DNA of 64,000 nucleotides, taken from contig JAFAYE010000001.1 of the NCBI GenBank assembly GCA_019240525.1, forward strand, positions 2,701,300 through 2,765,299. The letters run 5' to 3'. This document shows, piece after piece, positions 18,008-20,125 of this stretch. Made by a program: the position numbers and the translations under genes. Under the pieces are notes generated by a model. The model had not been told where the DNA came from. It ran no database searches and worked only from the letters and a program-made list of their open reading frames with translations. Within the stretch, counting starts at the first letter, position 1. Each line of letters opens with the position of its first letter. The stretch is from Candidatus Eremiobacterota bacterium (GTDB lineage Bacteria; Vulcanimicrobiota; Vulcanimicrobiia; Vulcanimicrobiales; Vulcanimicrobiaceae).

Positions 18008-18082
18008 TGGTGGGCGGTACATGGATTGAACATGTGACCTCTTCCGTGTCAAGGAAGCGCTCTCCCACTGAGCTAACCGCCC
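18008..18082 (-). tRNA. tRNA-Val(GAC)
   Basis: Reading the minus strand gives a 75-base cloverleaf beginning GGGCGGTTAGCTCAG with a seven-pair acceptor stem (GGGCGGT/ACCGCCC). The anticodon loop is TTGACAC, so the anticodon is GAC (Val). The CCA end is encoded (18008-18010). Confidence 0.95.
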
Positions 18083-18143: not shown

Positions 18144-18172
18144 TTGACAAGCCTCCTTCGCCGTGGTAAGGT
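18144..18172 (+). promoter_or_regulatory. Sigma70-type promoter of the leader-peptide unit
   Basis: A perfect TTGACA (18144-18149) and TAAGGT (18167-18172) are 17 bases apart. Transcription would start near 18179, about 30 bases ahead of the leader ATG, with the AGGAGG ribosome-binding site in between. Confidence 0.65.
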
Positions 18173-18207
18173 TGCGGCTATTCACTCGCTCGTCAATAGG
18201 AGGCACG

Positions 18208-18288
18208 ATGAATAATTTGCGTCAGTTCACCTCCGCCGCGCCGCAAAACGGTGTCGGTTCGACGTGGCTTTGGCCTTTGTCTTTCTAA
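18208..18288 (+). CDS. 26-residue peptide, candidate leader peptide
   Basis: A perfect AGGAGG (18198-18203), four bases before ATG 18208, opens a 26-codon frame starting MNNLRQFTSA and ending TWLWPLSF. The two Trp codons (18265-18267 and 18271-18273) lie near the end. Five bases after the stop is a small hairpin (18294-18299 with 18303-18308) and then an intrinsic terminator at 18322. Promoter, short leader, near-terminal Trp codons and terminator are the layout of an amino-acid attenuator; a free-standing small peptide gene is the alternative. No trp gene follows: the next gene is a 65-residue protein of unknown role at 18388. Confidence 0.55.
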   Translation: MNNLRQFTSAAPQNGVGSTWLWPLSF

Positions 18289-18321
18289 AGCGGGCTCGCA
18301 TAGCGAGCGATTCGAGAGACG

Positions 18322-18356
18322 AGGCCTCCGCGATCGAAACGGGGGCCTTTTTATTT
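18322..18356 (+). terminator. Intrinsic terminator / candidate attenuator
   Basis: AGGCCTCCG (18322-18330) pairs with CGGGGGCCT (18340-18348) over nine pairs, one of them T-G, with a nine-base loop, followed by TTTTATTT. The AGGCC of its 5' arm could alternatively pair with GGCCT at 18272-18276, inside the second Trp and Pro codons of the leader frame. Confidence 0.75.
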
Positions 18357-18387
18357 CCGCTCAAACTTAATCACAACGAGGTGAATC

Positions 18388-18585
18388 GTGGAACTTTGGC
18401 TCGAGGCCGAAATTCGGATTCGCCGTGAAGATGCGCTCGAAAGCGCTCGCCGCAGACGGCTCTTGGGCCGCGACGCCGGCGGACGTAGTCGAACGGTTCG
18501 CATCGGAATCGCCAATAGTGCGCAGGCGATCAGCGATGCACTGGCTGCGGTGGCGCGCAGCTTGCGAAACGGCGAAGCCGCATGA
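18388..18585 (+). CDS. Small basic protein downstream of the attenuator
   Basis: A GTG start at 18388 is five bases after GAGGT. The 65-residue product begins MELWLEAEIRIRREDALESA, is rich in Arg and Ala, and is predicted largely helical, with no signal peptide and no recognised domain. It ends five bases before the convergent TPR gene. Its position behind the leader-peptide terminator suggests expression by readthrough. Whether it is a true gene is uncertain, but the ribosome-binding site and context support it. Confidence 0.45.
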   Translation: MELWLEAEIRIRREDALESARRRRLLGRDAGGRSRTVRIGIANSAQAISDALAAVARSLRNGEAA

Positions 18586-18589
18586 TCGG

Positions 18590-20125
18590 CTACGGAAGGG
18601 CGTCGGCAGCGTTTGTGTCGGCGCCCTTCCACGTTTGTGCGAACGAGTCATCGCTCGCCGTGGCTTGGGCGCGCCTGCCCGATGCGCTCAACGCGCGTGC
18701 AAGGCCGTAAAGCGCCCGCGGGTCGTTGGGATACGCGGCAAGAGCCGCGGTAAATGCCTCGATCGCGCTCCCTGCATCTCCGTGTTCGAGCCGAATTGTT
18801 CCCAGTGCTTCATCCGCGGGAATCAGCGGGATGAGTTCGCCGCTGAAATTTGCCCGCTGATTCGCACGGCTCGCATCGATCCAGGCTTCGGCCTCGGCTT
18901 CGTGTCCGCGGGCTTCGGCAAGCTCCGCGAGCAGCAGCGCGGGCATATATCCGTCCGTCGTCTTGTCGCTGCGAAGTCTCGCCGCCATCGTTTCGGCCTC
19001 ACCGATGCGGCCTAAGTGCAAAGCCGCCAAGCCGCGAACGCTCAAAGCGGAAAATTCGTCGTTGCTTGCGGCATATGCGGCTTCATAGCGTCCGAAGCGC
19101 AGCGCGGTAATCGCATCGAAATTCGTCCCGAAGGCGACGCTCATGCGCTGACTCCAGCGCTGCGCCTGCGTGTAGTTTCCCAGCATCATTGCAGCCGAAT
19201 AGCCGACCGCGACGTCGTGCTTCGCATAGTGCTGAACGTGGGCTGACGTGGCATCGGCCGCGGTGAGCTGCGCCATCAGTTGGTACGCGCGCTCGCTGGA
19301 GTTGAGCGCGCGGGCATAGTTTCCGGTCTCAATCCAATAGTGCGCCGGCATGTGGGCCAAGTGCTCGGCTTCTGCACTCCACGCTTCTGCGTCGAGCCGT
19401 TCCGCGCATGGGCGTGCCGGCGCACGATTGGGCGCGAGATCGTAGAGATGGATGCAAAGGTGATTCGCCATAACGTTTTGCGCATCGTCGCTAAGCACGC
19501 CTTCGATCAATCGGAGCGCTTGCTGCGTCTCGTCACTCGCCGGTGCTTCCGCATTCCATTCTAGTCCGCCATGCTCCATGAGCGCTTCTGCCGCGAGCAA
19601 CTCGGCGTTTTCATCGCGCGAGGTTTGCGCAAACGCAAGCATGGCGTGTCGGTACGCGGCGTCGTCACGCGTATGGTCCGCGAACGTGCCCTGATAGCGC
19701 AATGCCATGATTTCGATGAAGCGCCGTTCTAGCGGCGATGCGGTTCGGGCGCTCGCCGACGCTTTGCGGATCGCCACTGCGGCGACGGCGAAGCGGTCTT
19801 CGGCAACCGGTGTGTTCAAATCAGGCCCTTGCGCGAGCGCGATTCCCCAGAACGCCATGGCTAGCTGCGGATCGAACGCTGCGGCTTGGGCAAAACTGCG
19901 CTGTGCGTCGTCGCCGTCGTACGCATAATAAAGGAAAAGGCCGCGATCGAACGCTGCTTGGGCTTGCGAAACGCTTGTCGTTACCTCCAGGTGCACCGGC
20001 CTCGTCGGCGGCGTCGCGGCAAGGACGACTGCGAGCAGAAGCACGTGGGGCTTTTTCAACCGTTGCCGCGTCGGTTCCGCGCTGGACAGCCCTTCCGCTG
20101 TAGGGTACGATACCGTTTTGTCCAA
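18590..20125 (-). CDS. Exported TPR-repeat protein
   Basis: The 511-residue product starts at TTG 20125 (no ATG is available; the ribosome-binding site is weak). A hydrophobic segment at residues 26-40 (HVLLLAVVLAATPP) is a likely signal or anchor. From about residue 50 on there are helical repeats with TPR character ('AAFDRGLFLYYAYDGDDAQRSFAQAAAFDPQLAMAFWGIALAQ', 'GDAGSAIEAFTAALAAYPNDPRALYGLARALSASGR'). The region 'HLCIHLYDLAPNRAPARPCAERLDAEAW...HMPAHYWIETGNYARALNSSERA' is typical of a group of uncharacterised TPR proteins in soil bacteria. It probably scaffolds protein contacts outside the cytoplasm. Its 5' end lies just upstream of the divergent tRNA cluster. Confidence 0.75.
   Translation of the reverse strand: MDKTVSYPTAEGLSSAEPTRQRLKKPHVLLLAVVLAATPPTRPVHLEVTTSVSQAQAAFDRGLFLYYAYDGDDAQRSFAQAAAFDPQLAMAFWGIALAQGPDLNTPVAEDRFAVAAVAIRKASASARTASPLERRFIEIMALRYQGTFADHTRDDAAYRHAMLAFAQTSRDENAELLAAEALMEHGGLEWNAEAPASDETQQALRLIEGVLSDDAQNVMANHLCIHLYDLAPNRAPARPCAERLDAEAWSAEAEHLAHMPAHYWIETGNYARALNSSERAYQLMAQLTAADATSAHVQHYAKHDVAVGYSAAMMLGNYTQAQRWSQRMSVAFGTNFDAITALRFGRYEAAYAASNDEFSALSVRGLAALHLGRIGEAETMAARLRSDKTTDGYMPALLLAELAEARGHEAEAEAWIDASRANQRANFSGELIPLIPADEALGTIRLEHGDAGSAIEAFTAALAAYPNDPRALYGLARALSASGRRAQATASDDSFAQTWKGADTNAADALP

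Follow-up and report, generated by a model that had tools for sequence, protein, structure and literature searches.

Architecture of the locus

The unit described here lies on the plus strand of the window (the whole stretch of 64,000 nucleotides that was analysed, from Candidatus Eremiobacterota), where it runs from a promoter at 18144–18172 to the end of a small gene at 18585. The promoter consists of TTGACA (18144–18149), a 17-nt spacer and TAAGGT (18167–18172); the latter is preceded by TG and belongs to an extended −10 element, TGGTAAGGT. About 30 nt from the transcript start begins a leader ORF of 26 codons plus stop (MNNLRQFTSAAPQNGVGSTWLWPLSF, 18208–18288), which has the Shine-Dalgarno sequence AGGAGG (18198–18203) in front of its ATG at 18208, encodes a peptide with the C-terminal end TWLWPLSF and closes with TAA at 18286–18288. 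Within this frame lies a hairpin, P1 (CGCCG-CAAAA-CGGTG, 18239–18253), and beyond it an intrinsic terminator (18321–18352), whose arms GAGGCCTCCG (18321–18330) and CGGGGGCCTT (18340–18349) are followed by a T run to 18352. The small gene (18388–18585) starts with GTG, has its own ribosome-binding site, GAGGTG (18378–18383), and encodes 65 residues, 13 of them Arg and none Lys. A consensus scanner missed the promoter, because its −10 hexamer matches TATAAT at only three of six positions, and the terminator, because its loop of 9 nucleotides exceeds the scanner's limit of 8. Direct reading and scripts nevertheless located the promoter, AGGAGG, 26-codon frame, small hairpin (18294–18308), terminator and 65-codon gene exactly where a previous sequence-only reading of this DNA had placed them, and the tRNA-Val gene that it had reported upstream on the other strand is a tRNA-Val(GAC) at 18008–18082 (minus strand).

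Downstream, a convergent gene for a TPR-repeat protein (18590–20125, minus strand) presents its 3′ end next after the small gene in many relatives as well; this synteny is conserved, but the TPR gene, being encoded on the opposite strand, does not belong to the leader/small-gene unit. A second inverted repeat (GGAAGGGCG/CGCCCTTCC, 18594–18630, not assigned to a strand), located between the small gene and the convergent TPR gene, recurs in most loci of the same genus.

Conservation and distribution of the unit

Compared with 60 relatives, 471 bases of the unit have clear matches (E 1e-8 or better) in 13 other genomes, 11 of which are from the same genus. With a sequence profile, the small protein is detected in 28 of the 149 genomes of the phylum, all from a single family, with the two or three weakest hits being doubtful. 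The same order of elements (extended −10 promoter of the form TGnTAnnnT, strong Shine-Dalgarno sequence, leader frame, GC-rich terminator and small gene) is found in 26 homologous loci, in three of which the promoter is cut off or unmatched by the search pattern; wherever it was located, TTTGAC(A)...TGnTAnnnT is conserved. All 26 loci, that is, those with upstream sequence, have a leader frame of 26–46 codons, in nearly every case with a GGAG-type site before the start codon, and in nearly all of them the terminator stem starts 21–36 nt past the leader stop codon. Equivalent terminator stems of 8–12 bp with a T-rich tail occur in 25/26 loci (one stem was not called correctly), and a clear terminator precedes the small gene by 32–48 nt in 25 of the 26. 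In an alignment of relatives, conservation extends to the promoter, the ribosome-binding site, the terminator, the start of the small gene and the second inverted repeat.

A model of the leader RNA recovers the same layout in further genera (L088, L091, L092, L124 and L125), and in a second family of the class (L094); the small proteins of the five loci from further genera are too divergent for detection by sequence search. Protein searches with two of the divergent small proteins add more second-family loci, as well as L114. Weak matches to the RNA model at L089, L095–L097, L122, L123 and L126 were rejected as ordinary terminators or coding sequence. When the window is searched against Rfam (release 15, gathering score), it matches tRNAs only and the leader is unmatched.

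Some features vary between loci. Four of them (L045, L048, L050 and L053) have a conserved AAGGAGG 11–12 nt before the ATG, a longer spacing than usual, and this motif looks kept for more than start-codon spacing. In L099 and L100, the leader frame starts very near the promoter and has no visible Shine-Dalgarno sequence, so that it is possibly a leaderless uORF. At L111 and L112, second-family genomes carry extra copies of a gene for a related small Arg-rich protein, and these copies lack the leader/terminator layout.

Selection on the leader frame and the small protein

The two reading frames differ in how they have diverged. In a comparison of 11 sequences from the genus, the leader frame has its differences spread evenly over codon positions 1, 2 and 3 (581/516/538), with 871 nonsynonymous and 146 synonymous codon differences, whereas those in the 65-aa gene concentrate at the third position (894/734/1371). 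By this comparison the leader is kept as a translatable frame and not for its peptide sequence, and the 65-aa protein, unlike the leader peptide, is under protein-type selection. The terminal TWLWPLSF of the window represents a local variation on ...STCxGPSE..., a pattern that for the most part mirrors the RNA motif GGACCTTCGG.

The small protein, 20% Arg, has no match in Pfam or NCBIfam, and Pfam likewise has none for its divergent relatives. Identity with DUF1127 (PF06568) was considered and rejected, since there is no Pfam match and a genome scan with PF06568 misses the locus. AlphaFold models the protein as a single long helix (pLDDT 79.5), less confidently in its middle part, and the divergent relatives share a first helix rich in R-x-R-R and a hydrophobic last helix. 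Our guess is that it is a stress factor whose target is RNA, ribosomes or a partner protein.

A covarying antiterminator overlaps the leader frame and the terminator

The last leader codons, GGCCTTTGTCTTTCT (18272–18286), can pair with AGAGACGAGGCC (18315–18326), which overlaps the 5′ arm of the terminator, to form an antiterminator that encloses an apical hairpin predicted by folding (GCTCGC-ATA-GCGAGC, 18294–18308). In the minimum-energy fold of the whole window leader, this pairing replaces the terminator, and its core is the complementarity of GGCCT near the leader end to AGGCC of the terminator arm, which had been pointed out from the sequence.

Two analyses support the pairing. Duplexes between each leader end and its own terminator region, evaluated without any structure-fitted alignment, average −26.8 kcal/mol natively and −22.2 (sd 0.72) when partners are permuted; none of 20,000 permutations is as good, either overall or within the genus alone, and 9/20,000 are as good outside the genus. 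The first half of the leader, used as a control segment in the same test, gives no signal. In an alignment of 28 model-aligned sequences (A4), which was fitted to the tested structure and thus leans toward it, 88% of cells are paired and 10/14 antiterminator pairs have two-sided changes, compared with a mean of 4.6 such pairs in shuffles (0/500 as good). All 5 pairs of P1 also have changes on both sides among 28 sequences. RNAalifold on a plain alignment recovers the terminator and a short hairpin, GGGTC/GGACC, and not the antiterminator. This hairpin, in which no two-sided change was seen, could be a weak anti-antiterminator; a stable one was not found in the leader.

Ribosome position is predicted to set termination

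Terminator probability was computed with ribosome footprints masked, on the assumptions of a 28-nt footprint and equilibrium folding. For the window, it is 0.03 in the free RNA, 0.00 with a ribosome at the start codon or at codons 6–12, 0.87 at codon 15, 0.95–0.96 at codons 18–24 and 0.98 at the stop codon, and most same-genus loci respond similarly. The footprint dependence implies that the gene should be off during translation and on when translation stalls or is absent; termination is predicted to require a ribosome that gets past about codon 15, with failure at any earlier step, initiation included, giving read-through. Dinucleotide shuffling of the leader from start codon to terminator raises the terminator probability of the window to 0.86 (0/100 shuffles as low as native) and the mean over 14 loci from 0.10 to 0.84, which indicates that the native sequence is tuned to oppose the terminator.

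Ten of 25 loci, mostly divergent ones, favour the terminator at equilibrium even as free RNA, and on this model their switch would have to be kinetic or differ from the one proposed. Such loci may switch kinetically, since in 24/25 loci the 5′ arm has already paired with upstream sequence (probability >0.5) when the 3′ arm of the terminator is yet to be transcribed. In some loci, upstream pairing of the arm falls only partly after ribosome passage.

A probable ribosome-mediated transcription attenuator

The unit is most probably a ribosome-mediated transcription attenuator that couples the gene for the 65-aa Arg-rich protein inversely to translation. Three features of such a device are present: by sequence, a short and apparently translatable leader ORF with a ribosome-binding site between promoter and gene; an intrinsic terminator between leader ORF and gene; and, by covariation and folding, an antiterminator that overlaps both the leader ORF and the 5′ arm of the terminator. 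The suggestion of an attenuator before the small gene, already made from the letters of the DNA, thus gains support from the conserved layout, the covarying antiterminator, the contrast between an unselected leader peptide and a selected small protein, and the folding, with the position of the ribosome predicted to set termination and the direction of the switch following from the folding models. In the proposed mechanism, the strong promoter would yield an RNA in which a strong ribosome-binding site precedes the leader frame. If this frame were not translated, or if a ribosome stalled before about codon 13, the last leader codons would pair with a stretch that starts just upstream of the 5′ arm of the terminator and overlaps it, and the resulting antiterminator would block termination and let RNA polymerase enter the small gene. 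A ribosome that had moved past about codon 15, as far as the stop, would cover the 5′ strand of the antiterminator; the terminator would then form and transcription would end near 18350. As no codon is conserved upstream, a general failure of translation (ribosome shortage, antibiotics or general tRNA starvation), not the lack of one amino acid, is the simplest signal, and we infer that this is what is sensed and that the small protein acts in the corresponding stress.

Three other explanations were weighed against this one. The sequence-only reading had noted a fit to amino-acid attenuation, by which starvation for Trp, or for another amino acid of the leader, would stall the ribosome and turn the small gene on; the general architecture fits, and two Trp codons do lie near the end of the window leader. 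These codons, however, are unique to the window among the 11 same-genus leaders, the leaders share no conserved run of codons, and a biosynthetic gene follows in no locus, the window having the 65-aa gene and then the convergent TPR gene. Moreover, these Trp codons fall in the antiterminator strand or next to it, and a ribosome that stalls there should by prediction favour the terminator (0.95–0.96 at codons 18–24); we regard this explanation as extremely unlikely. It is also very unlikely that the locus holds two independent small genes, or a leader-encoded small RNA or functional peptide, parted from the next gene by an ordinary terminator. The strong promoter, Shine-Dalgarno sequence and terminator would alone yield a free-standing short transcript, but the even spread of differences over the codon positions speaks against a functional form of the free-standing expressed peptide that had been envisaged as the alternative, and the covariation of the 3′ leader codons with the terminator arm and the restoration of the terminator by leader shuffling are at odds with independent genes.

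Autoregulation, in which the small Arg-rich protein or another trans factor would bind the leader and set the balance between antiterminator and terminator, leaving leader translation secondary, agrees with a small basic product (13 Arg of 65) and a covarying RNA structure. It is nonetheless unlikely, as the RNA layout persists across genera whose small proteins have diverged greatly, and as the 26 loci keep the leader frame and its strong Shine-Dalgarno sequence without selection on the peptide, which speaks for a role of translation as such.

Comparison with known systems

Attenuators of the trp/ilv type combine a leader peptide with overlapping antiterminator and terminator structures, and the position of the ribosome decides between them; the unit described here resembles them in these respects, the role of the ribosome being predicted. 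Corynebacterium ilvBNC is an example of such a leader-peptide attenuator (PMC11857589). The present unit differs in having neither conserved regulatory codons nor a biosynthetic gene, and in that the free RNA of the window is predicted to give read-through, not termination.

Intrinsic terminator/antiterminator logic is also shared with Bacillus subtilis vmlR and related antibiotic-resistance attenuators, in which a uORF precedes a mutually exclusive antiterminator and intrinsic terminator, expression is on when translation is hindered, and the peptide sequence of the uORF can vary (PMC9226507). In vmlR, the uORF has three codons and is embedded in an anti-antiterminator, and the controlled gene encodes an ABCF resistance protein (PMC9226507), whereas no stable anti-antiterminator was found for the window unit, whose product is a small Arg-rich protein.

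The closest tested parallel seems to be the duf1127_1 leader of Sinorhizobium meliloti, where a uORF of 29 aa starts 30 nt from the transcript start and precedes a gene for a small Arg-rich protein, uORF translation keeps that gene off without a specific amino acid being sensed, and tetracycline and chloramphenicol induce it (PMC12218461). The window matches this in its 26-aa leader about 30 nt from the transcript start and in the small Arg-rich protein downstream, and would also match it in that leader translation keeps the gene off with no particular amino acid being sensed. For the S. meliloti system, however, a Rho-dependent route is presumed, which involves C-rich elements in the early part of the uORF, and the second half of the uORF can be scrambled (PMC12218461); in the window, it is pairing of the last uORF codons that counteracts an intrinsic terminator, and by Pfam the small protein is not DUF1127. 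This shared logic, if the window unit does sense translation in general, seems to have arisen independently.

The unit is real and conserved, and as far as the libraries searched show it would be a ribosome-mediated attenuator not described before; no earlier attenuator RNA family was found in this phylum by the library search. It is possible, if on balance doubtful, that it represents an RNA sensor of failing translation which is class-wide, does not depend on the peptide and has as its output a fast-evolving family of small, helical, Arg-rich proteins, perhaps a stress factor that is peculiar to Eremiobacterota and directed at ribosomes or RNA. The unit would add an attenuator RNA family absent from the Rfam release searched and a small-protein family unmatched by any library searched. 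Should it sense translation in general, it would point to a small protein made when ribosomes fail, and give a handle on stress physiology in a poorly studied, almost uncultured phylum that is abundant in soil.

With regard to genomic context, the unit adjoins tRNA-Val in the window and in some relatives, and in two other genera (L092 and L125) an apparent SRP RNA gene, judged by eye, lies just downstream of the small gene; the unit shows a tendency to adjoin genes for stable RNAs.
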